Positions 4,401 through 58,585 of a stretch of 64,000 bases of DNA are shown here, piece after piece. The stretch is from Schoenoplectus triqueter (Eukaryota; Streptophyta; Magnoliopsida; Poales; Cyperaceae). Position 1 is the first letter of the stretch. Every line of letters starts with the position of its first letter. The stretch is taken from assembly GCA_964058805.1 (NCBI GenBank), contig CAXKVV010000043.1:124001-188000 (forward strand), read 5' to 3'. The position numbers were made by a program, and so were the translations under genes. The notes beneath the pieces were generated by a model, which ran no database searches, was not told the DNA's origin, and saw only the letters and a program-made list of their open reading frames with translations.

Positions 4401-4870
4401 ATCAGAAAGAGGATTCACGTCCGAACCCTAACACAAATAAATGGTTAAATCAATGAACCCGGGCAAAATAAAAATAAACATTAAAATGGGCGATTAATAT
4501 AACAAACGTGCATTAAGAATAAGAATACGTTAAGTACAAATTTTGACACCCCTAATTACTGCAGAAATGCTGTCAAAATTTTGATGGAAAAACGGAATAA
4601 TGACCGAACGGACGTTAAATAAGAATATGCTTTAATTAATTAATAATCCTAAATTAAATAACGTAAAAACTGATGGACACTCAATTTAAATAAATAATAG
4701 GTGATATAGTCGACTCGGATCCACTCGCGGAGACCGAGGTCGATCCCGACCTCGTGTACGCAGGCGCTGATCCCGAGACGGACGCGCTGCCTCCGGAGTA
4801 GAGCGACTTCACGATCCTTGCCAGCACTCTCAGGTATGGTTTCCTGGGATTTAATTTTCTTTTTTTAGAA
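1431..4870. other. Gene-free stretch: AT-rich DNA with an LTR-like promoter block
   Basis: 1431-1740 and 3820-4700 are very AT-rich with nothing recognisable. 1740-2050 is a pyrimidine (CT) tract. A TATAAATA box sits at 2291-2298, followed by a GT-rich stretch (2640-3260) with repeated CTGGTAC words, which looks like the U3/R/leader part of a retroelement. Near 3665-3690 there is a hairpin with CCGCC/GGCGG arms. 4705-4800 is an abrupt GC-rich island that can be read as a short acidic peptide ending in TAG. No LTR pair or PBS was identified, so the element class is unknown. Confidence 0.35.
2291..2298 (+). promoter_or_regulatory. TATA box of an LTR-like promoter
   Basis: TATAAATA lies directly downstream of a C-rich stretch and upstream of a long GT-rich leader-like region with no conserved coding frame. 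This is the layout of a retroelement promoter, but no protein domains follow to confirm it. Confidence 0.35.
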
Positions 4871-5299
4871 ATAGGAACCCAAACCGAAAATAAAATCGTT
4901 TTTAAAATAAATCTGAATTGCGGTATTTTCTGACCAAAAATTTATAGAGACTAAATCTGACATGTCATATGCATCCGGTAAATTGACCAGCATAGTTGAG
5001 ACATACCCGCATTCATATGTCATATCATGTCATACTGCACGTAGACAGGATAGGAGTAGGATTCGGGAAATAGTCCCGAGATAGGATTAGATAGAATTAA
5101 ATAATTCAAGTTGTAGATTATATTTATTAAGTGTTTACCCCTGAAAGGTTGAAGGAAGAAATACAAAAGAAAAAAGCCAAAATCAAACCCTATGAGCAGA
5201 ACCAATACAATCCCTGTGCAACAAGGAATGATGTCAATGCCAAGCCAGTATTTTGATACAACCAATCATGAGAAATCTCAATATGATTTTGCTTTCAAG

Positions 5300-5502
5300 G
5301 CTGACCTGGTGCCAAAGCTGCGAGCAACCACCTAACCATGTTTTAATTTGTGTCAATTGCTGATAAGTAGTCAGCTTTTTGACCAAATTACCCTCATGTT
5401 AAGGGATTAAAAGTCAATTTCACAAGACTGATCAGGTGCCAAAGCTGGGAGCAACCACCTGATCAAGTCTAGATTTGTATTAATTGCTGATAAGTAGTCA
5501 GC
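5300..5502. repeat. Tandem duplication (about 125 bp) with internal hairpins
   Basis: Two copies of one unit start near 5300 and 5427. Both contain CCAAAGCTG.GAGCAAC followed by CACCT, and later GCTGATAAGTAGTCAGC (5359-5375 and 5486-5502), a 5-bp hairpin with a 7-nt loop. In the second copy the segment 5429-5465 is a perfect 10-bp stem (TGATCAGGTG and its complement) around a 17-nt loop. The first copy keeps the loop but has partly mismatched arms. Confidence 0.7.
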
Positions 5503-6682
5503 ATTTGATCAAATCAAACCCTAATAAGCATCAGTATTGGTGTTAATTGGGGTGGAGTTTCCGCAAGGAGAATTTATTTGGCAGAGACACTGAGCTACAG
5601 TTGTGAAAATTGGGATTAACTGAGAAAAACAGGGGTTCCTTGATCAAGGAATTTTTAGCACAAGCAAACAGGGGTAAAAATGGAATTAAAAAATACAGAG
5701 GTGATCATCATGAATTTAGGGATTTTTGAAGAAAATTTCATAATTTTTGGATGAAGGGATCTATTAAAATAAATTGGAGAAAGAAAATTGATCAATCAGA
5801 AGGCTGAGATCTGATCAAAGGACTTTTAAGGGTGCAACTTGGGGCTAAAGGTTTAGCTGGGTGTAAATTGGGTCTACCAAACAAATGAAAGACTGTTTTG
5901 GCGCTGGGGAGAAATTATGAAAAAGCAAATTACTGCATACACCCGGTTTATTATAATTGAGTCTCATTAAACCCGACGTGTGGGGCCGGATCACATGCAC
6001 CGAGTCCACCCGATCAGCGCCACCTTTCCCCTCCACTTTCTTCACTGCTGCTGGGTCCCACAGGGCAGAGCCCTCTTCCCTTCTTCCCTGCTGCGCCTTC
6101 TCCTTTTCTGACCCGATTCCTTCAACAGAAAACTAAATTGAAAATGAGAAATGGCTCAATTGGTTATGAAATTTTGCAAATAATATATTGCTGGAAAGCT
6201 CTAACCGAGGAGAATCTATTGAAGTGATTGATTTTAAGAATGGTGCATTGTGCATCACTCGTATCAAGGAGAAGAAACTCGAGTGTATAATGCAATTAAG
6301 CGATTTAGAAGATAATTGGGCAAATTGGCGATTGGGAGAGCGTCGTGTGGGTCCCACGATTCTGTTAAGGCAGTTGCTGGCACACATTTACTTCCTTTTA
6401 TATATTTTCCATAATGAAGTTGGTGTGTTGGACCGAGAACAATGAAATTACAGAAATTCACTTGGTGTTTTGAGAAGAGAGAGTAGGGAAGAGATGAACT
6501 ACGATCACAATGCCACGCTGGCGATCCAAACCATCAATTTTGTTCACAACAAGCACATGCCAGATTAATCCACACCATTGAACTATTGGGTTAAGGGCTG
6601 AGATGCAACCATGTTAGCAATCCAGGGGAGAAAAGAAACACAATTTGTGCATAAAGAAGCACAATTGAGATGTAATTGAGCC

Positions 6683-6690
6683 TATATAAA
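6683..6690 (+). promoter_or_regulatory. TATA box of a promoter-like block
   Basis: TATATAAA is followed about 25-30 bp later by a C run and CT tract and then a long purine-rich leader. No gene with recognisable coding follows, so this is probably a retroelement promoter remnant. Confidence 0.35.
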
Positions 6691-7279
6691 CCCTGGAGCA
6701 ACAATTGATCAACCCCCCCCCCCCCGATTCATACTCTCTCTCTCGGCTGAAATTCATTATACTTCACTTCCTTTTTTTGACTGATAGATCTCGGTGGATA
6801 ACTTGAGAACTCAGTCACACCCTATCTTAGATCCGAAAGGGGAAGAAAAGAGGCGGCAACACAAGTGATTGAAAGAAAGAGAGAGAAGCTAAGAGAGTTC
6901 AATTTTCATTTTCTTGATCAAGATTAGACCTTTGATCACCTATTCATCTTCAGAATAATCAAGGTCTAGGTAATTCTCCACTGTGATGTATAATCCTCTT
7001 GGAAGAGCAATGTAAGTGATTGTACAATGAAGAATTTGAGTTGAATTTCTTTTAATTTCATTTCTTTCTAGTTTTCTTTCCCCTCTCTATCCTTCTTATA
7101 TCTTTTACTGTCCCTAATCATTCTTTGGAGCTATACAACAGTAGAATTGTTATTCAAATCTCGGTTGAAAGGGTTTTTGTAACCCTCCCGGGTTCAATTT
7201 GGATAAACCAATTGGATTAGAATCACAATTGAAATTGATTGAAGGGTTTGTGCAACCCTCCCAATACTATTGCAATACT

Positions 7280-8700
7280 GATCATTCAAATTCAGTAGAT
7301 CTCAATCGGGATTTCAGCCGTACTAGAAATAATTAAGTGATGTGTATTGCTCGTACTTGCTATCCCAATTATAAAATATGAAATTCATGTAGAATCAATA
7401 CACAGAAGGCATAAGGTAATGTACAAAAACCAGGGATGTGTGCTTGACATCAATGAAACTTGAATGATCAAGATTGCCATGATTTCAGAGCTAATACCGA
7501 GTAGTACCATTTGATAAATCGGCTCAGTTGCTAATTGGACAATCTCAGGCGCGAAATCAGTCATTGAACATGTTGACTAGGCCAAAGCGACGCACTTTGA
7601 TATAAGAATTGTGAAGATTGTTAATCAATTGAGTGAGGAATTGATAAAACAATCAACTCGGTACCGGGATTATCATTGGTACCGAAAACGGTATAGGCAT
7701 CGTCACTCTTCTACCGTACCGATTCGAAATCCAAGACCACAACCGAACTCCAGACACCCAGGCGATCCCAGTAGTGCCCTCCGATCTCCGACTAGCTAGC
7801 GGAAATACCATATCACCACCTGGGCACGTATCTCAAAGTACCATCGGAGAAGATGATGAAGAAGTATTTGAACGAAAGGTCTAAAGAAACACGCACAAAT
7901 CGTGAAGCAATCTAATGGAACACATGAAAGCATGGGCTGGAGATTGGAGCAAAGCGGCATCTCACCTGCACAGATCTAAATGTCCATCCAACGGCCCAGA
8001 TTAATCAATGAATTAATTTCAGCCCAGTGCCATATTGGGCCCAGCAAAAAAAGAAGGAATAAATAACAGAAGGGGGTCAGCCCAGTTGCGCATTCGGCCC
8101 AACTCAGAGAAAATAATGAAATGGGCCCAGTAGTTAAAGAAAGATTAATCTCGGCCCAATCTGTTAAGCCCAACTGATAATTAATAACAGAAAATCAAAA
8201 ATAAATAGTAAATACATCATTTGGAGGTCTTCCCAAACTCCAAATTAACTCAAATTTGTTTCTAAAAATTCTTTGTTTTTCATAGTATTTTTTCTATATA
8301 AAAACATTTCAAATTTAAGAATTTTACAGTACTGAAACAATTTAAAAGCAAAATGACATTGTTGCTTTTCCCTATTTGACCAAGCTTTGACTTGCTATTT
8401 TGGCTATTATAAAAAATCCTAAAAATCCAAATAAAATCATAAATAATAGCCAGCTTATTTTCTATTATTTTTGTAAGTAATTTTCTACAAAAATAAATAA
8501 AGTTCAAAATAATAAAAATAAAATTCTATTACTTTAGCTATTATAAAATCCTAAAAATATATAACAAAATTCTAGTTAATAGCTAACCCATTTCCTATTA
8601 TTTTTGTAAATAATTTTCTACAGAAATAAATAGAGTTTAAAAATAAAAATAAATTCACCTTTATAATAGAGATAATAATGAAAGGTATTATCTTAATAAT
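7280..8700. repeat. Right arm of the large inverted repeat, with internal tandem duplication
   Basis: This is the partner of 1-1430 in inverted orientation. It contains its own tandem duplication of about 135 bp (about 8398-8530 and 8534-8660), each copy with TAGCTATTATAAAATCC-like, TTTCTATTATTTTTGTAA and TTTTCTACA-AAATAAATA blocks. The central part (7650-7800) has several CGGTACC words. No supported coding sequence was found. Confidence 0.5.
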
Positions 8701-8750
8701 AAAATCAATAAAAAAATGTAATAATCTTTTTACATTTTAGAGGTGAACAA

Positions 8751-9326
8751 ATATGCTCACACAAGGGGTGTAGAGCAACACAGTGATTTTGCACACATAA
8801 TGCAACATCTAGAACGATTAGTCGGGACAAGAACATCTTGACGAAGAATAACCAAGGCTGCGACATCAACATGAAGGGATATGTCGACTTTGAGGAAGAA
8901 GAACATTACGATGTCTGAGAGAAATGACATCTTAATGACTCAGTGCCATGAACAAGTAATTCATGACTAAATACGCTCACACAAGGGGTGTAGAGCAAAA
9001 CAGTGATTTTGCACACATAATGCAACATCTAGAACGATTAGTCGGGACAAGAACATCTTGACGAAGAATAACCAAGACTGCGACATCAACATGAGGAGAT
9101 ATGTCGAGACAAGAACATCTTGACGCTCGTTGAAGAATAACCAAGACTGTGACATCAACATGAGGAGATATGTCGAGACAAGAACATCTTGACGCTCGTT
9201 GAAGAATAACCAGGGCTGCGATATCAACATGAAGAGATATGTCGACTCCAAGAGATGAGAACATTACGATGTCCGATAGAAGTGACATCTTAATGACTCG
9301 GTGTCATGAACAAGTAATTCATGATT
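8751..9326. repeat. Tandem repeat block (220-bp unit with 61-69-bp subunits)
   Basis: A unit beginning ATATGCTCAC at 8751 recurs as ATACGCTCAC at 8971. The second copy is longer because a subunit starting ACAAGAACATCTTGACG is repeated at about 9048, 9109 and 9178. Each subunit carries small hairpins: CAAGA-ACA-TCTTG; CGACAT with ATATGTCG around a conserved CAACATGA-containing loop; GATGTC with GACATC; and ATGAA with TTCAT. The minus-strand open frames here are read-through of the repeat, not genes. Confidence 0.8.
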
Positions 9327-9398
9327 ATTTGAACTAGTAAGACTGAACTCATCCGTCGATAAGTTTGTCTTCTAGTTTATCTCCCGAGATGTGAGATT

Positions 9399-10199
9399 GA
9401 ATCGTCATGTAGTAGATTCATCCACAAAACAGTGAATGAGAACCGTTCTGTAGTAGGTTCCCTCACTAACACATGCCTCAACGTTAAGCTGGCTTAGTGC
9501 TTCAGGTTTGATTTGTGCGTAGTTGTGTTCCTAGGTTTATGAATCGGCTTAGTGCTTCGAATTCATGATCTAGAAGATCGGTGAGAAGAAACACGTGGGC
9601 CAAATCCACCCTTCTCCTGATTCACCAACCTCAAGATCAACCGGCTCAGTGCTTCGAGTTGTATTTTGTGTGATTGGTTGTTGACTGGTTAAGATTGAAC
9701 CGTTCTGTAGTAGGTTTATCTTCTAGATCAACTGAGGTTGAGTCGTTCTGTAGTAGACTCACCTCAAGCCCCTCTGAAGAGATTAATCTGATCTGTAGTA
9801 AGGTTTTCTCTCGAGGCGGTATAGACTGAACCGATCTGTAGTAGGTTCATCTTCCATAGGATCAACTGTGAACCGTTTTGAAGTAGGTTCATTTTCTAGA
9901 TCAACTGAGGTTGAGTCGTTTTGTAGTAGACTCACCTCAAACCTCTCTGAAGAGATTAATCTGATCTGTAGTAAGGTTTTTTTTTCTCTCGAGGCGGTAT
10001 AGACTGAACCGATCTGTAGTAGGTTCGTCTTTCATAGGATTAACTGTGAACCGTTCTGAAGTAGGTTCATTTTCTAGATGAACTGAGGTTGAGTCGTTCT
10101 GTAGTAGACTCACCTCAAGCCCCTTTGAAGAGATTAATCTGATCTGTAGTAAGGTTATCTCTCGAGGCGGTAAAGACTGAACCGATCTGTAGTAGGTTC
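9399..10199. repeat. Array of 14 short dyads with constant loop and variable complementary arms
   Basis: Fourteen 21-nt elements have the layout 5-nt arm, 11-nt loop, 5-nt arm. The loop is GTTCTGTAGTA or a close variant (GATCTGTAGTA, GTTTTGAAGTA, GTCATGTAGTA). Elements start at 9399, 9440, 9697, 9740, 9785, 9828, 9870, 9913, 9958, 10006, 10048, 10091, 10136 and 10179. Arm pairs are GAATC/GATTC, GAACC/GGTTC (one GGTTT), GAGTC/GACTC and AATCT/AGGTT (one G-U pair). From about 9774 the elements sit in a higher-order unit of 172-178 bp repeated about three times. Three related dyads with a GGCTTAGTGCTTC-type loop lie at about 9486, 9539 and 9638. Function unknown. Confidence 0.85.
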
Positions 10200-12036
10200 G
10201 TCTTCCATGGGATCAACCTTTTAGTGAACCCAGACGACCACTTGACCATCATTTAACTATACTATTTGCTTCTCCCTTTTAAAGATCCAGAGGTGCCTCG
10301 AGGTTAGTAGCCCAGGGTAATTAACGATGGGGGCTTGCGCCCACCGGAATCTACAAGAACTCACAATCACTAAAAAACCCCCTAAATGTGCATCCAAATC
10401 TTCCTAAACGGCAAAATCAGCCGGCATTAAACAGATGCACGCTTGGGAGGGATCTCCATGTCCTTCTTCCGCATCCTATCGCCCAGCGGCGGTGCGGAGC
10501 GCGCGAAAAAGGGTCGCACATTAAGAAAATATTATTACTATTACTAAGTATTAATTAAGTTAGGCAGTTAATCATGCATTAAATGCATGGGAGTGCTGAG
10601 AGACAGATCAGGTAATTCTCAGTCTGAGTTGCCTTGCATAACCAGACCGTTGTGGTTACGTACGGTGACCCATAGGCCTGTGGGACCCACCAGTCTGTAT
10701 ACGTACTACGCATCTATGCCTGTCGGATTATCCACCGATCCCGTCATTTGGCAGGTTCGGCTGTGCCAGAGTGTTTTCTTTTGATCTTTATTATATTTTA
10801 TTATTATTCTTTATATGATTAAATGTTTAATCCAAATTTGAGTGATTAGGATACCGTGTACTTCAGTGTTTAGTGTGGGCGGCCATATCCGAGACTGGAA
10901 TCTATTTCGTGCTACTATATTATTATATCTATTCGGCTTATTTAGGATCCTAGTATTGTCCGAAGGGCTTTCTCATTTGGCCCTTAGTTGGTACAGAGGA
11001 AGTCGGGATGCGATCCACTGACCTTAGTGGGTACAGTGTAGGCTCTCATTCGTTTATATTTAATTTTGACACTTTTACGGGATGTGGTCCTCTGACCCTT
11101 TGTTGGTACAGTGTAGACTCCAATTTGTTTTCGATTTGTTAATTCACGGGTAGTTATCTCCTTTTTACGATATGGCAACTGAAGACATACTATATCCGTT
11201 TGTTTCTATTTTTATAAGGTAAATTACCAGATTCAGCAGACCAGAGTACGTGCTTTATAGCCGTTCACTCTCCTAGGGCGTTATCGCCTCGGGAGCCTGA
11301 ATTATCGTTTGTGCGACGTTGCCGCTGCACAAATATAAAGTCCTAAGTTAGTAAGTTGGGCCCTGGTAGTGCCCGCTTAGGCAAGACCCGAGTTAGTAAG
11401 TTGGGCCCTGATAGTGCCCGCTCGGGATGAGTCTAGTAAATTTACAATCGAGGTATTTATTACGGGTGTTTGACTCTCATACATTATATTTTATATTATA
11501 CTATTTTCACAGATTTTTTATTTTGGGTTTCTTCACCATGCCATGTCATATCATGTAGGACAAATGTGCATGATAATATTATTATATTTACTCATCAATA
11601 TTATATTGCATTTCAAATATCAGTATCGATTTTTGGGTCCAGTCTAGAAAAGAAGATCAAATCTTAAGGCTGGATCTAAATCTGTACTGAGGAATTTTTA
11701 AATTACTCACGTTTCCACGGTGGTTGTGGGATCCAGGTATTTTCAGGTTCGGGATTTTGCTAGAGTGAGTGCTAGGGACAGTCCTGCGCGATGACAGGGA
11801 TGCTTCGCTGCATTTGCATGTGAGCCGGGTAGTCAGATAGGATCCATCGGGTTTTTGAGTCTTACTTCTTTCTTTTGGGTTTTTATTTGAGAGATTCCTG
11901 CCCATTCCGATGGAGCTAGCCCCCGCCTATGTAGGCGTTGTATTCTCTTTGTTCATTCTGGACTGTATGGTCATGTATATTATATTATTAGTTTTGTTTT
12001 TTCTGTGATTTTCTTATTTTATTTCATTTAGTCTTT
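10200..12036. other. Gene-free, repeat-rich stretch
   Basis: No coding gene is recognised. 10290-10520 is moderately GC-rich with no coding signal. 10975-11130 has about three diverged copies of a unit containing CTGACC-TT-GTTGGTACAGTGTAG. 11342-11426 has two hairpins with a shared core, listed separately. 11650-12036 reads like the distal part of a Gypsy-type LTR: an ACGGTGGTTGTGGGATCCAGG word, then a T-rich stretch leading to the hairpin at 12037. Confidence 0.4.
11342..11426. repeat. Two hairpins with a conserved 28-nt core and different arms
   Basis: Copy 1 has CCTAAG at 11342-11347, a core at 11348-11375 and CTTAGG at 11376-11381. Copy 2 has CCCGAG at 11387-11392, a core at 11393-11420 and CTCGGG at 11421-11426. 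The cores differ at a single position (GGTAGT against GATAGT), while both 6-nt arms changed together and stay fully complementary. Confidence 0.85.
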
Positions 12037-12062
12037 CGTACGCACGTCTCGTCGTGCGTACG
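12037..12062. other. Perfect 10-bp hairpin near an LTR-like end
   Basis: CGTACGCACG (12037-12046), loop TCTCGT, CGTGCGTACG (12053-12062). It is followed by a GCACCCCTAATCCG word and GGGGTGTGACA near 12105-12115. A related LTR-like sequence in opposite orientation at 21560-22000 carries a hairpin in the same relative place with different arms. Confidence 0.7.
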
Positions 12063-14229
12063 TGGCGAGATTAAGCACCCCTAATCCGTTCAATTTATTT
12101 CTGGGGTGTGACACTTATACTTCGGTTTTTCGTCAATTGTTCAGAGTTTTAACTGATTTTATTCAATCAAAGTCGATACTTTTGAACAACCAATTGAGAG
12201 TATAGAGACTGAGAGACCTATGGTCTTCGATTAGTTGATTATCAGGGTGTGATGCTAGGAGATCGTTCGATCTTCGACTAGCGTAGGCTCACACACCCGA
12301 TTTAACCCATTAGTAGCCGAATTGATCAAGAAAAAGGAAGAACATAGAATAGAAAGAATCTAAATAGTAAGACGATAGATCAGAGGAGAAATTCAATCAA
12401 TAAAATCAAAGAATTCGATTGAATTGGAAGAAAAATATACAAGAATGCAAAGAACATTACCAAATTTCAGTGAATTGAACAAATTGTGTATAGTTACATC
12501 TCGAGCTCATAATTTTCATTGAATTACTCACCTCTCTTCTCTTCTTGTCACTTTAAGTTCTTCAGTTGACTGTTAATGGTGGAGAGATGAGTGGATACCG
12601 AGCTCTCAATACTTGTTGAGATCAATCGGTTAATTGGTTTCTTACTTGGTCTCTACATACCAACTTTGGAGAAAATATTAAGTAAAAACTAAAAGTAAAT
12701 TCTTGGTCTTCAAAGGGTAATTAAACCAACTGATGATGAAACAATGGATATTAAAATGTTGAATTGGTGCATACATGAACTTTTCAGTTGTGGCACTTGG
12801 GTGATTGGTACCGATTGTGAGTGGTACCAATTATAACCAGAAAACTAGTACCGATTATAACCACAAACTGGTACATGAGTGGTATCAATTATAACCAGAA
12901 ACTAATATCGATTATAACCACAAAACTGGTACATGAGTGGTAGCGATTTAAATAGCTCCAATCAATTAATGTAATCAGAAAAATTGGTACCGATTCATAT
13001 TTTGCACACTGGTATAACACATGGATCTTTTGGAATATTCTTTTGAATTCTTCTGTTGAGTGGCTGACAAGTCGGAGCAGTTGGCCGTTGCAGTCCGGGC
13101 ATCCTACATTCTGCAGACGATGAAGATCGGTCGAACAATTCATGGCTCGCGATCAAGATCAGTTGAACGAGCTGATGGACGAACTGGGATTTTGCAATCA
13201 CAGGTGAGAATGAAGACAGTAGCGACGATTCTGTGTGAAGATTTTACAATCAGAGGAGATGATAGTGAGAATGAAGATAGTAGCGGCGATTCTGTATGAA
13301 GATTGGCGATTTTAACAAGGAAAGGTCAAATGGATGGAATGGGGTATTTTTAGAAATCCAGAAATACATTTAGAAAATACTGTGATTTCTAACTAAACTT
13401 AATAAAGAATGTATAACAAATGTATAAGTGTGGCATTTTACTAATTATTTATGTTTTATGGTGGCATTAGATGGAGATTAGAATTTATTGTGGCATTTTG
13501 CTAAATTAAGTGTTTTAGAGTGGTATGGTGCTAATTTTCTCTTTTTTTAACACTTCTTGACATATTTTTGCAACATTTTCTTCTTCCAAACCGTTAGAAA
13601 ATTATTGAACTTATTTTTTAAAATAGTATCACCTAATATTACTAACAGTTTTTATTAAAAACCGTTAGTAAATTGGTATTACTCAATCTATTACGTATCG
13701 ATTCCACTGTAGCCTATGTGGTACCAATTAAGAGAGCAATTTGAAGCATCTACAGTTAATACTCATCAATTAAAAAAATATGAACTTTAAAATATTGTAA
13801 TTAACTTTTGGGGTGGCAGGTACGTACCGGATAAAAATTAACGAACTTATATATTTAAGACGCATTGATCGATCATGAACGATATATATATAGCAATAGA
13901 TATGGCACAGCATAAAGCAAGATCAGTAGTTAATTCTCCGAACAAGCCCATAAATTGACAAATTTAATGAGAAGAGGTACCATATATTGCTGTTCACGTT
14001 TTAATTTCCTAAAAATTAGGGCGCCATGCTTCTCCTTCCCTCCTAGTAAAAAAGTTTGGAAAGAATCCAGCTGGCAGCTAAGCTACTACTAGTCTATTAC
14101 TCACCAAAATGTTCATAATCATCCACTAAGCACAAATATATATATATATAAAAGCCTAAACTAGTTATAGGCACATGGCCTGTATATAATTAATAATTTA
14201 ATATTAAATATGAAGGTTCTTTGTGTGTG

Positions 14230-22010: not shown

Positions 22011-23138
22011 CCCGTTTAATTTTATTTATGATAAATGCAATAAATATATTTGTAGTTAAACTTTTAAATTGATTTATTATTCATAGGTGTGGTGTAAAGT
22101 GAATGCAAGAAAGTTTAAAAATATACGCTACATGAGGTGCCATCATAATTTTATATCAAAGAAATAAAAATATTTGAAATATAATAATAATATAAATATG
22201 AGAGATAACCCCTATAGCACATATACATATGACTCAACGAGATCTGAAATTTTAAAAGAAAAGTCAACTATGACAGGATAAGGACACGTACACCATGTTG
22301 ATTTATTGTATTTATCCTGCTTAACCTTTTAGCCCATTTAGTTCTTATTTTCTGACCTACATTACGACATCGATTATCAGCCTAGATTTATTTTGTGCAT
22401 ATAACCCTAAAAAAGGTGTTATTACCGTAAAAGTTCATTTGGCCCTTAAACTTTATATTTTTCACAATTTAGTCCCTTGCGTTCTTGAACCGATAACTAT
22501 ATTTTCGGCCTAGCCTCCTTCATCCCTCCCTATCAACAAAGGGTAAGTACAAGAATATTCACATGTTGGCTATCTACTATGCCTTTCGATTTGATTTTAG
22601 GCTCTGACTCATCTTCCATGGACAAACCTTACAGATGAACCCTTAGATTTTTGGGACATTGGATTCTCACCAATGCTTTCATTACTCAAGCCAACATTCT
22701 CGTTTTTAGGCTCTGACTCATCTTCCCTTCAAGGCAAAACATGTAGCTTTTATCCTTCAAGCTGGGACGACAGTCGACCTTAGTGATCATTTAGTAAATA
22801 TCTATATTTGAGTTAACAAATATAATATCCGACGTTCAAAGAAAAAATTGTAACAATTTTTGAGTGGACGCCTCGATCTCAGGGCTCCTCAGAAAAAAAA
22901 AAATTCTGTTTATCATGCAAAAATATATATTGAACTAGATGTAACAAACAAACTAGTATTACTAACTTGGGAGAGCCATCATTAATGATCCATCACTTTT
23001 CTCTCTCTTCCTTAACTCCATATCCTTTTTGTCATTTGTCTCACCTCCATTGACCGTTGGACTTGGACATCACTCTCTGCCTATTTCATACACTATAGCT
23101 ACATCTTAAGCTCTACATATCCGTTTGTTCCCTAGATC
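22011..23138. other. WOX3 upstream intergenic region
   Basis: AT-rich DNA. 22590-22740 contains two near copies of TTTTAGGCTCTGACTCATCTTCC, a short direct repeat. Nothing is coding until the WOX3-like gene. Confidence 0.35.
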
Positions 23139-23146
23139 TATAAATA
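23139..23146 (+). promoter_or_regulatory. TATA box of the WOX3-like gene
   Basis: TATAAATA lies 95 bp upstream of the conserved-position ATG at 23234. Plant transcription usually starts about 30 bp after the TATA box, which would give a 5' leader of about 60 nt. The reading frame upstream of 23234 is therefore promoter or leader, not protein. Confidence 0.6.
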
Positions 23147-23233
23147 ACCCCCAAACCCTGGGAGAATCATATATTGACAAACGCACCTCACTTGTATTTT
23201 CTAGTATTCACAACCCACCAGTAAGAACTAAAG

Positions 23234-24379
23234 ATGCCTCAAACTCCTTCAACCAGTGGTGCCCCACACCAGAGCAGGTGATGATCCTCCAAGAGATGTA
23301 CAGAAGTGGCGTGCGCACCCCTAATGCCACTCAGATACAGCAGATCACGGCGCACCTCTCTTTCTATGGAAAGATTGAAGGTAAAAATGTTTTTTATTGG
23401 TTCCAAAACCATAAGGCACGTGAGCGCCAGAAGCTGAGGCGCCGCCTCTGCCGCCACCATCAACTGCTGCTTCTGAATAACAACCACCACCAGCAGGCGG
23501 CAGTTCCCGATGATGTACCGCCGCCTTCTCCTACAACACCTACTAGTGCCCCTCTGACTCCCCATGGGCTTTTGCCACCTCATCCTCATACTACTGCAAC
23601 TCCATGTTTCATTCCTCAGGTGCACTTCCATAAAAGAAATTTTCATTTTATGTGTATATAGTTAAGGCTTTATACTTGAGAACCTACAGTCATTCAAAAT
23701 TAACAAGAAAAAAAAAGCAGTGAAAAGATGAATCATAAACTTCCTGATGGAAAAAATTATGCATTATTGCTTCTCGCAGCAGAGAAAAGAGGGTTCGCGG
23801 AAGAAGTGCTCTTTATAATACTTTAGTTTTTAAAATTTATTCAACTGTGAAAAATCTAATGTTCAAGATGTATAGAAATACTGAATAAGCGCAAAGATAT
23901 ATAGTGTAAAAGTTATATCGTTAACAAAAGTAAATTGGTCTAATTTGCTGCGCACACTATACACACATGTACAGACTCAACTGTACACAAGTTTCAGATC
24001 TTAATTAGTTTGAAATGTTATTTTATTTCCTTAATTAATTTATTTATTATCTCAAGCATATTGTGTGTTCTCCTTATGCGAGTGGCATACTGCATTCTAT
24101 TTTTTTTCTTTTAATTCTATATAGGGCTATAATTTGCATGAAGCTTCTGTTCGGGGGCTTGATCCTGTTGGGAGTTTAGATTCTATTGAAACCCTAGAAG
24201 AAGATCCGATGGCTGGTATTGCAGCAGAAGACTGGACAGCAGCAATGGATTTTAGCGCCACTCTACCGCCATGTTGCCGTCCTCTCAAAACCCTAGATCT
24301 CTTTCCCACCAAAAGCACTGGGCTAAAGGAAGAATGCCGTCCCTCCAAATCCTCTTCTCGTTCTACTTCTACGAACTAA
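23234..24379 (+). CDS. WOX3: WOX3/PRESSED FLOWER-like homeobox transcription factor, start out of frame
   Basis: The WUSCHEL-related homeobox domain (about 23261-23450) contains [35 protein letters not shown] and ERQKLRRR. The wording '[16 protein letters not shown]' is typical of the WOX3/PRS clade, which promotes outgrowth of leaf and flower margins. Exon 1 ends with CAG at 23619 (donor GTGCAC), and exon 2 runs 24125-24379 after acceptor ATATAG. Exon 2 ends with the WUS box TLDLFP at 24290-24307, a repressive motif. Oddity: ATG at 23234 begins a peptide matching the expected short N-terminus, but the codon before the conserved Trp is only AG, so one base is missing and the ATG frame is shifted. 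The homeodomain frame has no in-frame ATG after the stop at 23107 until 23281, inside helix 1. It is either a real frameshift allele or a sequence error. The family call is confident; functional status is open. Confidence 0.9.
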
Positions 24380-32689: not shown

Positions 32690-35270
32690 CTAATGTCTAA
32701 TTTGAGATAGTTGCATCTTTCGAGTCTTCATATTTTGAAAACGCTGTAAAATCCTTTCATCGTCAATAGTGATAAAAATCTCTCGCTCAATGTAACAAAC
32801 CATGTTATCATTCATCCATTTATCACCCATCTTGTTGCGCAATTCTGTCTTAATGATATTCATCGCTGAGAATGCTCTTTCAACTGTTGTTGTTGCCACG
32901 GGTAAGATCAAGGCCAACTCAATGAGGCGATATACTAATGGAAAGAATAAATGTCTTTCAGTTTGAACCATTTGGATGGCAAATGTTACAAGATCATGAC
33001 AATCTAAAAATTCTGAACTATTTCGCACATCATAAATGAATGTGCCGAGCTCGCCTCTTAAAAATGTACGGTCAACTGATGAGAAGTCAGCAGAATAAAT
33101 ACTAGCAAGTTCAAGAAGTTTATCGTGATCAAATTTAGAGAAAGAATCTCTTGGATCAAGACAAGCAATGCATTTGAATAAATTAGTAGATGTTTCACTA
33201 AATCGTTCATCCATCTCAAAAAGTAGCGAGTCAAGCACAGCCAAAAAAATATCAACACAGTAGTGATGTGAGTACTTCATCATTTGACCATCACGTCTTG
33301 ACTTACCTACAACAACAACAACAACAACAAATTAACAACAAAGCATTCAATTCCAAATCAAGGATAATAATAGTGATAATAGCATGCCTTGACTTACCTC
33401 TTGCTGGTATTTTATCATCCATATTAGGCACTGGAATTTTCATATTCATACAAAAACCCTTTACTTCTTCCAATAGTTTATCATATCCATTGTCCCTTAA
33501 GTGTTGCACATTTTACTTTGCAACAACAATCAAACTAACTGCACGAATGATGTTCTGATCTTTCCTTTGCAGTGCATGTGATAACTCACTAGTACAACCC
33601 AAAACTTGTAGCATTAGATGCATTATAAATGCAAATTCAAAACTCTCCATTTTCTCTATTAAACCCGCAACTGTGGTTTTTTGTGTCAAATTAGTTACAT
33701 CATCACTCACATTCTCCAACACTTTTAATATCGAGTCCCACATTATAAAGAGGCGAACCAACGTTATGTGATGTGAACCCCATCGGGTATCACCTGGTCT
33801 TGCAAGACTAGTTTCTTGATGTTTTCCTCTTCCCGAAAAAAATATCACCACGCTCTAGTTTCATTACAATACTGTCATGGTAATCTTGAAGTAATCAATC
33901 TTTTCTTTTGCAAGATGCATCTACAATATTGACAATTAAAGTGGTATAATTAAAAAAATCGGCTACAGATGAACTGCACTTTGCAACAACAACTAACATT
34001 AACTGCAATTGATGAGCAAAACAATGGACATAAAAGGCATGAGAATTTTCATCCAAAATTCATCTTTGCAACCCATTGAATTCTCCTCTCATGTTTGAAG
34101 CACCATCATATCCCTGTCCTCGTAATCTAGAGATAGATAAATCATGTCAAGCAAACAAAGCCTCCAATGCTATTTTTAATGAAGATGTCGTAGTGTCAGA
34201 AACATGCTCAATGCCAAGAAATCTCTCAATCACATGTCCTGTCTTGTTTACAAACCTACATAGTAATAAATCAACAATAATAAAGTTAAGAGTTAAAAAT
34301 ATTATTTTAGTAATGGCTAATTGAATTTAGAAGCATTAGTTAGTAACCTCAAAACCACAACCATTTGATCCTTAACTGATGCATCACGATACTCATCAAC
34401 AAGTACGGCAAACAACTTATCTCCAAGTTCATTACTAATGGCAAGTGAGGTCTCTTCTGCACAAGCTTTCACCATCTCTTTTTGTATACTCGGGGAAGTC
34501 ATCTGATTATTCCTAGGAGCATTTTCATAAAGTACTTTAGCAATTTCGGGTTTTCTTTCTTTATACCAGTTTAGTAACTCCAAAAAATTTCCTCTATTGC
34601 TAGAACTATGAGTCTCATCATGTCCACGAAAAATAAGAGCTTACAATAGGAAAAAAATCTTGTAATATGTAAAATAGAAGTGATGCGTATTCTGTATACA
34701 ATCTCAGCTTCCTTGCTATGTGTAGATAACACATATGATATGCTTTGTTTTTTATTTTTGAAATCTTGACAAACTCGTCTTGCATAGTTGTGGCAAGAGT
34801 TTAGTCCACCTACATGATCTTTAAAAGCTTCCAATGCTTTCCTCCAATTATTAAATCCTTCTTGTGTGAAGACTTCATATCCAAATTTTTCACCTCTCAC
34901 TTGTTGCTTAAAAAGATAACAATAAAAGCAATAAGCTGAATCATTTTCTACACTATATTCTAACCAATCAAATTTTTTGAACCATGATTCTTGAAAAGTC
35001 CTAAAATGATCTCCTTGTTGTTTGCGAGGAAAATTATGACCAATTGGTTGAGTTGGACCATTCAACAAATATGCTCTTCTAATTTCATCCCTAATTTCAT
35101 TGTCATAATCGTCAATTGGCTTGCGAATCTCAGGGTCGACAATTACTTCACTTGAACTCAAGTCGACACGTGCTTTCTTTTATGCAAGCACTCCCCCACG
35201 AGATGATAAATGTGAACTCCTTTCATTTTTATTATTCTTTGACTTAGGTTTGTAATACTTCTCTATACCT
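32690..35270 (-). pseudogene. Decayed hAT transposase (TTF zinc-finger / DUF4371 / dimerisation type)
   Basis: Read on the minus strand from about 35265: an IEKYYKPKS-like start, then a TTF-type zinc-finger region with YCFYCYLF (about 34900) and a conserved FNNWRKALEAFKDH. Next come DUF4371-like pieces (34317-34583, 33513-33851) and the C-terminal hAT dimerisation domain (32690-33283) with TTTVERAFSAMNIIKTELRN. Plant proteins of this type are usually about 750-800 residues. Breaks include an in-frame TAA just before 35161 and several frame changes between the segments, so no intact enzyme is encoded. Nearby + strand open frames are shadows. Confidence 0.82.
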
Positions 35271-40040: not shown

Positions 40041-54103
<14,063 letters not shown>

Positions 54104-55620: not shown

Positions 55621-56631
55621 GCCTCGGCCTCTCCTTACTTCTAAGTTGTAACCCTATCGCACTCTCCTTCGCCCAATCTCCCTTTCCCATTCCCAATCGG
55701 GCTGTCGTCGCCTTCTCCGGCTATTGCCGGAGCCACTCCTCGCTGTCTTTCTGCGACCGTCTGGTAATTGATCTCTCTCTCTCTCTCTCTCTCTCCCTCT
55801 CTCCAGCTCTTTCGGCCATCGCGTTTGATATCCAATCACCGTTGCATTCTGTTCTGAGCTAGATTTATACACTGTATGACGTCTTCCTTCAGAAGTTTGA
55901 ATTTTTCAGCATTTCTAATCAATCTCTTTGCTGCAATTTTGGGCATCTACTATTATTTGATACTGTTTGAGCATAGATTTGTCTTATTTCCGGGAAAATG
56001 TGTCATTATTGCATCATATCCTTCTTTTCTAAGCTGTAATTTCAATTTGCTTGACCAGTCCATTTTGTTACCTACAACTTTTTTCTCCATCTCTCTATTT
56101 AGTGTTTTTGTATTAATCAGGACCAATCTCATGATTCAATACATCTTTGCATATCTAGTTGCATCTGTACCGTCAAGTGAATAGCAATGGTTAGTTTTCC
56201 CTCATTCAAAATGTAGATATCATGATTATTCATGCAGTGCCGTTTCAGTCTGATTTTGATGCTTAAGAAGCCAAGATTACCAGTGATGCATTTGAAACTT
56301 AATTTAGTTTTATTCGAAATTAGGCACTGATGATTTGATAATACTCATTGACCATGCCATCAGTATCAATTTAGGGGAGGGGTCACTTGATGATGGCTAT
56401 TTTGACAATCTTGACAATGGAACTTTAAATAATTCGAAAAAAAAATCTTAAAAATAGAAAAAGAAAAAGTTTATCTATATTCTTGAGCATAGACCTTTTT
56501 TAAGATTTTTTTGAATTTGTTTGAAGTTCTATTGTCAAGAGATCCCTCCCCATCTGTTTATTGTCTTTTCTTGTCCATTGAATATATTTCTCTTGTATTT
56601 CAGGTGGATACTTCTATTATAAATTGTAAAA
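55621..56631 (+). promoter_or_regulatory. TOP1 5' leader with an intron
   Basis: A C/T-rich leader (about 55621-55763) ends CTG before donor GTAATTG. An acceptor TTGTATTTCAG ends at 56603, and 28 nt later comes the ATG in good context (AAAATGG). The leader intron is therefore about 840 bp, begins with a (TC)n run (55769-55802), and holds the inverted repeat at 56374-56551. The open frame 55876-56184 within it is not conserved coding. Confidence 0.6.
56374..56551. repeat. Imperfect inverted repeat, MITE-like, in the TOP1 leader intron
   Basis: GGGGAGGGGTCACTTGA at the left end pairs with GGGGAGGGATCTCTTGA on the other strand at the right end. Inner arms around GACAATGGAACTT and AAAAAAATCTTAAAAA also pair. 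No clear target duplication is seen, so the transposon class is open. Confidence 0.55.
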
Positions 56632-58585
56632 ATGGCAGTGGATGGGTGCATAAAGCCAGTGCCTTACAACCCTCCGAATGATGACTCTGACGATGATGAT
56701 ATGCCATTGACTTTCAAAAGACCATCGTCTAAGAATAAACCAACAAATGTAAAACCAGCCCTGGCTCCTCCTAAGGCTACTAAACTGCCACAAACCTCGA
56801 TCAATGGAAAAAGCTCTAACAAATCAAGGGGAAAATTGGTTGCATCTACCTCAAAACCACTATCAGTAGCTAATGAAAGGACCAATTTGAAGAGGACTCT
56901 CAAAGTAGAGAAGGACTCTGATGACTCAGAAGATGAGAAGCCAATCAGTAAAAAACTTAATCTTTCTTCATCAGGTCAAAAGCCAGTTTCAGGTGGTACA
57001 AATAAAGTGGTTTCTATTAAGGAATTGGTAAAGAAGGAAGAGCCACCAGATGATTCTGATGACGAGAAACCTTTGATTGCTAGGTTTTCAAATACCACTG
57101 CAAAATCCACAAACACATCTAGAACAACACTAAGTTCCCGTAAACCTGATTCCGATGATTCAGAGGATGAAAAACCTTTATCCTTTAGATTTGGCACGTC
57201 ATCAAATCATTCCAAGTCCAAGGAGCAAGTGAAAGACACTCCTGGTACCAACAAAAGCTTAAATAAGCGTCCTTTAAGTAGTAGCGGCAACAGTGCTCCT
57301 ACACCATCTAGTTCTGTCAAAAAGGTGAAAACAGATGCAGGGTCATCAAGCTCAAAGTCCACAAAGGATTTGAAGAAGAGCAGCACTAGATTCTCAAAGA
57401 AGGATTTCAAGAATAAATCAAAGTTGAAAAATAAAGATTCAAAAAATTCCAAGTTCAAAAAGCCACCTGGGTCAGGCGGTGGCCGGAAATGGACCACACT
57501 GGTGCACAATGGGGTTATCTTCCCACCACCCTACAGTCCTCACAGGGTAAAAATGTTATATAATGGGCAGCCAGTTGATCTAACACCCGAACAGGAGGAG
57601 GTAAAGTATTTTTGGTAATTTATTTTCATGCTTCAGATTGGGTGTAGTTTGTTGGCTTGGTTGTGTCTAGTTGAGATGGATTAGAAATATGAAATTATGG
57701 GTCAATGCTATCCTGATTGCATTGAGATGTTGATCCACTGGCACTTTGATTAGGTAATATGGCTGTGATAGGCTTGTAATTGGATTTCATACGCATGTTG
57801 AACTGGGAGGTCTTCTATAGAATCATGGGGGCATAATCCTCCACCATAATCGTAATTCTCTTAGGGGAGCCTTGTTTTAGCTGGATAGGAACATGACTGA
57901 AGAAATAGTGCTGGATTAGAATTGGATTCATATTATTCTTCCAAAATTATATTTGCAGAACTTAGTAACCGTTATCTATTCAATTTTTTATGAATTTTTT
58001 TTTGTTGTCAGGTTGCAACAATGTTTGCTGTGATGAAAGACTCTGATTATGCAACAAAGCCGAAGTTTCTAGAGAACTTTTGGAATGATTGGAAGCAAAT
58101 ATTGGGTAAAAACCATGTAATTAAAAAAATTGAGCTGTGTGATTTCACCCCTATTTACAAATGGCATCTTGCTGAGAAGGAGAAGAAAAAACAGATGACC
58201 TCTGAGGTAAATTTACAAATCTAGAAGTTTTCACATTCACCATATAAACCTGATACAGGGTATAAACTCTGGATGGTATGACTGGCAAAATTAGAAGCTC
58301 CGCTCTGCTGCTATGAAAAATGATATGAGCTGTCTAGGCATGTTATTCTGTGCTATGCAAGTACATGCACTCTTAATTTAAAGGATGGTCTAGGACTTTA
58401 GGGTTAATACCTTTTGAATCATAATGAGGAAACTAAAGAGGCCTAAAATTCAAACTCAAGTTTTTCCAGCTTAATGAAATAACAAACAATGATGATTGCT
58501 ACAGGAGAAAAAAGCTTTAAAAGAAGAAAAGCTCAAGCAAGAGGAGAAGTTCATGTGGGCCATAGTTGATGGAGTCAAAGAGAAG

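Follow-up and report, generated by a model that had tools for sequence, protein, structure and literature searches.

The window analysed here, a 64-kb stretch of genomic DNA, carries inside a long terminal repeat (LTR) a compact array of small dyads. We consider it probable that this array represents one class of RNA hairpin in sense RNA, together with a second class, and that the hairpins are recognized through their loop and bulge, are bound multivalently and have Gag as their likeliest partner. The data suggest that the array is a repeated RNA structure needed by the element that carries it.

Hairpins of the window copy

All 14 dyads announced in the earlier note were present, with loops starting at positions 9404, 9445, 9702, 9745, 9790, 9833, 9875, 9918, 9963, 10011, 10053, 10096, 10141 and 10184. 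Its four arm versions were also found, GAATC once, GAACC seven times, GAGTC three times and AATCT/AGGTT three times (with a T.G pair in the middle); the list was nevertheless incomplete, as the partner of GAACC at 9702 is GGTTT, which gives an outer G.T pair. The loop is near-constant, as claimed: the motif GWTCTGTAGTA with at most one mismatch matched 14 times in the 64 kb, 12 of them within the array, versus 1.94 expected, and two of the 14 dyads have two mismatches to it. When the dyads were folded one by one, 13 of the 14 were predicted to adopt the drawn hairpin, the exception being that at 9963.

These type-1 hairpins all lie on the plus strand. Hairpins 1 (9398-9420, GAATC/GATTC) and 2 (9440-9460, GAACC/GGTTC) were identified by sequence and fold. 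Hairpins 3 (site A, 9696-9718, GAACC/GGTTT), 4 (site B, 9739-9761, GAGTC/GACTC, with a lower stem GAGGT/ACCTC) and 5 (site C, 9784-9806, AATCT/AGGTT) were identified in addition by comparison of the same site between copies. Sequence and fold again define hairpins 6 (9827-9849) and 7 (9869-9891), both GAACC/GGTTC, 8 (9912-9934, GAGTC/GACTC), 10 (10005-10027) and 11 (10047-10069), both GAACC/GGTTC, 12 (10090-10112, GAGTC/GACTC), 13 (10135-10157, AATCT/AGGTT) and 14 (10178-10200, GAACC/GGTTC), and hairpin 9 (9957-9979, AATCT/AGGTT) was assigned by sequence, its window copy failing to fold alone. The higher-order units of 172-178 bp mentioned in the earlier note are real: repeat analysis delimited three tandem units of this approximate size on the plus strand (9696-10217), each with four hairpins.

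The three sister dyads are likewise real and form the type-2 class, also on the plus strand. S1 (9483-9512, GTTAAGC/GTTTGAT, loop TGGCTTAGTGCTTCAG) and S2 (9538-9567, TATGAAT/ATTCATG) were identified by sequence, sister copies and fold; pairing of S1 requires two inner G.U pairs and one terminal G.U. S3 (9638-9661, CAAC/GTTG) has just 4 bp, is defined by sequence and, taken alone, is not the minimum-energy fold. One more related hairpin, the fifteenth, was recognized at 9339-9371 (plus strand) by sequence, sister copies and fold; its loop has diverged (AAGAC-bulge-GAACT/AGTTTGTCTT).

Further upstream, at the transition from AT-rich to GC-richer sequence, lies a plus-strand hairpin GCTCACAC/GTGTaGAGC (8755-8776, predicted fold energy -10.8 kcal/mol), whose motif also occurs in sister LTRs; by eye, its arms in locus L049 are altered yet paired. 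It is possible that this hairpin is the start of the structured part. No conserved TATA was seen by eye upstream of it in the sister LTRs. Tandem repeats of 69 bp at 9063-9245, immediately upstream of the array, might themselves contain small dyads, and AT-rich repeats of about 133 bp occupy 8396-8656, with related sequence inverted at 231-594. By eye, a sister LTR has a perfect 11-bp hairpin (GCTTCAGTGAT/ATCACTGAAGC) downstream of the array (L049:1150-1180); L052 has an altered, mostly paired version of it, and none was seen in the window copy.

The array lies in a solo LTR of a Ty3-type element

The 14 dyads are inside a solo LTR on the plus strand (5132-10520, 5389 bp), with TG...CA ends that were read directly. 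The match between the window and related loci ends at 10518-10528 in 19 of the 20 loci of this LTR family, the remaining one (L019) ending earlier, at 10308. Locus L010 is an empty site, which joins window positions 4823-5129 directly to 10520-12113 without an insert. This empty site and the target-site duplication TTAAG on both flanks (5127-5131 and 10521-10525) establish the LTR length of 5389 bp.

Past the LTR end (...GGTCGCACA), related loci continue into unrelated sequence or, in L023, L024, L026 and L027, into GGATCTGGCACGCCC or a one-base variant. The PBS, TGGCACGCCCGGTGGGAC, matches as a complement the 3' terminus of a tRNA-Arg(TCT), including its CCA, and two tRNA genes terminate in GTCCCACCGGGCGTG. 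Downstream of the PBS, the internal region of relatives encodes gag (Pfam PF03732), then an aspartic protease whose Pfam matches score below the curated cut-off; one related element has reverse transcriptase (RT) and RNase H (PF00078, PF17917, PF17919). With its TG...CA LTR, its 5-bp target-site duplication and the gag, protease (below cut-off) and RT-RNase H of its relatives, the element is, as judged from sequence, a Ty3-type (Ty3/gypsy) LTR retrotransposon. We file it as Tat-like solely by gag likeness and the tRNA-Arg PBS. The closest gag proteins came from a JGI metagenome (57% identity across 47% of the query) and from Ananas comosus (52% across 17%).

Some elements repeat the PBS two to three times at about 145-146 bp (C22:535544/535690/535836, C463:27381/27526/27671, C1004:5012/5158/5304 in G000, and C1489 near 26046). 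The final 75 nt of the LTR recurs nearby in four places, and LTR end and PBS seem to be tandemly duplicated. In L041 (1300-1330), a splice-acceptor-like stretch (TTTTTGTTTTTGCAG/G), noted by eye right before the ATG that opens the gag frame, may mark a leader intron.

Related LTRs are abundant in the genome. The dyad pattern TGAACYGATCTGTWWGTARGTTCA, with at most three mismatches, matched 2226 times in 82 Mb (reversed control, 1), and the LTR-end motif matched 736 times versus 0 for its reversed control. Pairs of same-strand matches separated by about 22 kb, as on C469, C502 and C167, suggest full-length elements.

Other parts of the window contain a WOX3/PRESSED FLOWER homeobox exon (23110-23661; best named matches in the sedges Carex littledalei, 83%, and Rhynchospora pubera, 85%, by which the host is sedge-like), Ty1/copia-type fragments in several frames (45250-49694; integrase and an SH3-like domain at 46766-48250 by Pfam, the rest by eye) and a topoisomerase I N-terminal exon (56623-57618, PF02919). 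On the minus strand, ORFs at 32690-33331 and 34571-35179 resemble, by eye only, pieces of hAT-type transposase.

Array plan across copies

Across copies, the type-1 hairpin consists of a lower stem (about 4-5 bp), a single-base 5' bulge, an upper stem (5-6 bp) and a loop of 11-12 nt, the consensus of which is near-constant, mostly G-A/U-U-N-U-R-U-(U)-N-G-U-A. Dyads follow one another with a median spacing of 44 (interquartile range 42-46; 769 intervals below 70 nt), and stretches that span the array hold from 7 (in one family) up to 20 paired dyads. In the LTR family of the window, the number of paired dyads is exactly 10 in 11 of the 18 single-LTR loci and ranges from 8 to 14; the copy in the window has 14 dyads and an extra higher-order unit. 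Loop and spacing are common to diverged LTR families, and the type-2 class, with another constant loop, behaves like type 1. Four elements include internal sequence; in these, every dyad with four or more pairs is located 334-942 nt upstream of the LTR end, and the 3.9-4.9 kb of internal region examined in each gave no loop match.

The arms of the dyads covary

The earlier note proposed that the arms change together and remain complementary. We measured this with a scan that used the loop only (at most two loop mismatches, arms unused), a design chosen to avoid bias, over 74 loci from which L001-L006 and L008 had been removed beforehand as duplicates. Five of the 74 are flank pieces without a paired dyad (L053, L055, L058, L059 and L060), and L045 and L056 have one. 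Since dyads were located by their loop, loop constancy is partly built into this sample; arm pairing is not. The scan returned 979 loops, of which 590 (60%) had five of five and 866 (88%) at least four of five Watson-Crick arm pairs. When partners were shuffled, these values fell to 14.5% and 43.8%, with a maximum of 169 of 979 at five of five in 500 shuffles; shuffling inside a locus gave 23.9% and 52.7%, and sliding the partners by 1-3 bases gave at most 0.7% and 1.6%. Restricting the scan to the 54 loci shorter than 5 kb left 694 loops, 411 with five pairs and 614 with at least four, and scans of smaller sets of loci gave a consistent picture. On the opposite strand of these 74 loci there were 91 loop matches, which means that a fraction of the 979 must be chance hits. 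Thus the arms pair far above shuffled partners, as the proposal implies. The perfect 5-bp arms come in 16 versions, of which 12 recur (GAACT, GAACC, GAGTC, GAATC, AAACT, GATCT, AACCT, GGACT, AAACC, GAATT, GAGTT and AATCT).

Shared ancestry was taken into account with a tree-based null in which the substitutions of each branch are kept and moved among columns (730 unique dyads, 528 column pairs). Three stem pairs ranked first, L3-R3 (E 0.005), L1-R1 (E 0.01) and L2-R2 (E 0.23, not significant by itself). A non-stem pair, R7-R11, ranked fourth; the lower-stem pairs L9-R8 and L11-R10 ranked fifth and sixth and were not significant, and their shift by one base on the left corresponds to the single-base bulge of the predicted folds. 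A run on 470 unique dyads agreed (E 0.01 for both L1-R1 and L3-R3, 0.14 for L2-R2). Neither of the refuting outcomes named in the earlier note was obtained.

Individual sites, recognized across copies by sequence outside the stem, show how the arms change. Site A occurs as GAACC/GGTTC, GAACC/GGTTT, AAACC/GGTTT and GAACT/AGTTC; site B as GAGTC/GACTC, GAGTT/GACTC and GAGTT/AACTC; site C as GATCT/AGATC, GATCT/AGGTC, AATCT/AGGTT, AACCT/AGGTT and AATCT/AGATT. Rarer and unpaired rows also occur. The same site passes between copies through G.U intermediates, as in GAUCU/AGAUC, GAUCU/AGGUC, AAUCU/AGGUU and AACCU/AGGUU. At the type-2 site S1 the right arm is mostly GTTTGAC, and the left arm is GTTGAAC, GTTAAGC, GTCAAGC or GTCGAAC, all paired when G.U is counted.

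Pairing is probably on the sense strand

A G.U pair on one strand is an A.C mismatch on the other. In type-1 pairs 1-5, arm versions present in at least three loci had 19 G.U versus 6 A.C (binomial p 0.015), and single-locus versions had 33 versus 31 (Fisher comparison of the two groups, p 0.055); versions in exactly two loci gave 11:8 and those in at least five loci 7:3. With pair 6 included, the ratios were 25:13 for versions in at least three loci and 50:37 for single-locus versions. Type-2 versions in at least two loci gave 15:1, single-locus versions being also skewed (30:10). As arm versions share ancestry, these counts are not independent. When each of 42 site-pairs was counted once, with one row per locus, at least 10% G.U was found in 8, at least 10% A.C in 2 and another mismatch in none (one-sided p 0.055), a count slightly biased towards G.U since sites A, B, C and E needed at least three of six pairs counting G.U. 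In this count the type-2 sites were assigned by the letters of their right arm, so that the G of S2 pair 7 is fixed. Fold energy was uninformative as a strand test: over nine windows the mean z was -1.92 for sense and -1.66 for antisense, which does not clearly separate the strands, and predicted pair probabilities were alike on both.

Because shared mismatches favour G.U over A.C, pairing seems to take place in the sense strand, which points to RNA rather than to a DNA-binding dyad; each test is modest, and all go in one direction. Among the options raised by the earlier note (a hairpin in RNA, a hairpin in single-stranded DNA or a dyad-binding protein), the data speak for an RNA hairpin of the sense strand and against a protein that recognizes the arm sequence.

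What the array may do

The combination of a near-constant loop and bulge with a stem that covaries is the signature of an RNA hairpin bound by a protein. A partner would recognize loop and bulge, while the stem would need only to pair, and the many copies would give multivalent binding, making the array a multivalent binding platform in the RNA of the element. In LTR retrotransposon RNA, U3 is present at the 3' end and U5 at the 5' end, so the array would be transcribed in genomic RNA wherever the start site lies. Together, the hairpin pattern and this position favour a multivalent RNA platform, with packaging by Gag as the first candidate function and a host factor as the second. The element's own Gag may bind the array, which would thereby select and condense genomic RNA for packaging; this is our leading, still tentative, assignment of the partner. 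The traits of a packaging-signal array, namely repeated stem-loops, a shared loop motif and paired stems, were found here in sequence, covariation and predicted folding.

The same RNA hairpins could instead be bound by a host RNA-binding protein and steer nuclear export, 3'-end formation (polyadenylation) or translation rather than packaging, the other main option and one that we hold possible. UGUA, used by plant far-upstream polyadenylation elements, lies within the commonest loops; however, it is absent from some (GATCTGTTAGTA, 21 of 506 matches), and nothing found here connects the array with a poly(A) site. For export, structured elements do occur in animal LTR elements (PMC12786077). That the dyads work as DNA, as palindromic transcription-factor sites of an enhancer in U3, like the proposal made for Sirevirus repeated motifs, seems improbable to us. 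Many copies do lie in the LTR upstream of an AT/pyrimidine stretch (TTAACTATACTATTTGCTTCTC at 10253) that is conserved among LTR copies and is a candidate core promoter, but the arms (GAACC, GAGTC, AATCT, GGACT, GATCT) do not share a half-site while the spacer is near-constant, the reverse of the Sirevirus motifs, and the excess of G.U over A.C among shared mismatches also argues against it.

Template switching can produce paired changes, and arrays grow in 172-178 bp units; the array might therefore be functionless, template switching correcting quasi-palindromes so that arms stay complementary and tandem duplication multiplying them. We regard this as quite unlikely, since correction would erase the G.T pairs and the one-base bulge, both of which persist across many copies, and predicts neither a strand bias nor a constant loop; the sharing of loop and spacing by diverged LTR families also goes against a lack of function. 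Least probable, in our judgement, are small-RNA precursors or silencing decoys: repeated hairpins do occur here within an abundant element, and hairpins in maize transposable elements have been linked to small RNAs (PMC10760457), but the near-constant part is the loop and not the stem, which speaks against a precursor. Stems of 10-11 bp are also far below the usual length of a Dicer substrate. Loop-loop or loop-target pairing was rejected, antisense loop matches in four elements being few and without a common position. A search of Rfam gave no family above the gathering score; its sole weak match, DAOA-AS1_2 on the minus strand, was below that score and was taken as chance.

We return to the proposed RNA platform bound through loop and bulge. 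Little seems to be known about RNA structures that act in cis in plant LTR retrotransposons: the main text of a 2025 review of the plant LTR retrotransposon life cycle (PMC12786077) does not contain the terms "stem-loop", "hairpin", "dimerization" or "secondary structure", and examples of structured elements that it names come from mouse. The array offers a specific RNA motif in many repeats, for which nature supplies compensatory variants, and a direct search for its binding partner is therefore feasible; it may also account for part of the long non-coding stretches of giant LTRs. More generally, it is possible, though less likely than not, that Tat-like plant retrotransposons carry in their LTR a dedicated, near-regular array of Gag-binding RNA hairpins that serves as a multi-site packaging and assembly signal.

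Comparison with known systems

No LTR hairpin array of this layout was found among the titles and abstract openings listed by searches of the open-licence literature. The closest described LTR feature found is the Sirevirus repeated motif (Bousios et al. 2010, PMC2829016): each element has between 8 and 32 palindromic boxes, placed in the LTRs and also in linker regions. As here, many palindromic units lie in the LTRs of plant retrotransposons, but the constancy pattern is opposite: as described there, Sirevirus arms are shared (CGG-CCG core, Tnd-1 excepted) and the intervening bases vary between elements, whereas here the loop is near-constant and the arms covary within one LTR; shared palindromic arms with a CGG-CCG core were not found in the array. 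Sireviruses are, moreover, Ty1/copia elements, and their boxes are discussed as DNA-level regulatory sequences upstream of the TATA (PMC2829016). The transport elements of IAP and MusD are likewise cis-acting RNA elements in LTR retrotransposons, but that of mouse MusD is a single complex fold with a pseudoknot and a kissing loop, in contrast to an array of one hairpin (PMC12786077).

Ogre/Retand elements are likewise Tat-type elements with tandem repeats, which sit downstream of the coding region and ahead of the 3' LTR, whereas the present array is inside the LTR. We know of no description of those repeats as hairpins. The stems of dispersed packaging signals of RNA viruses, such as phage MS2, are variable. 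In MS2, the signals are many stem-loops that have in common a loop motif together with a bulge on the 5' side (Twarock et al. 2018, PMC6281560), and in these traits the LTR array resembles them; RNA-virus signals are dispersed through the genome (PMC6281560), whereas the predicted hairpins described here form a compact, near-regular array within an LTR.
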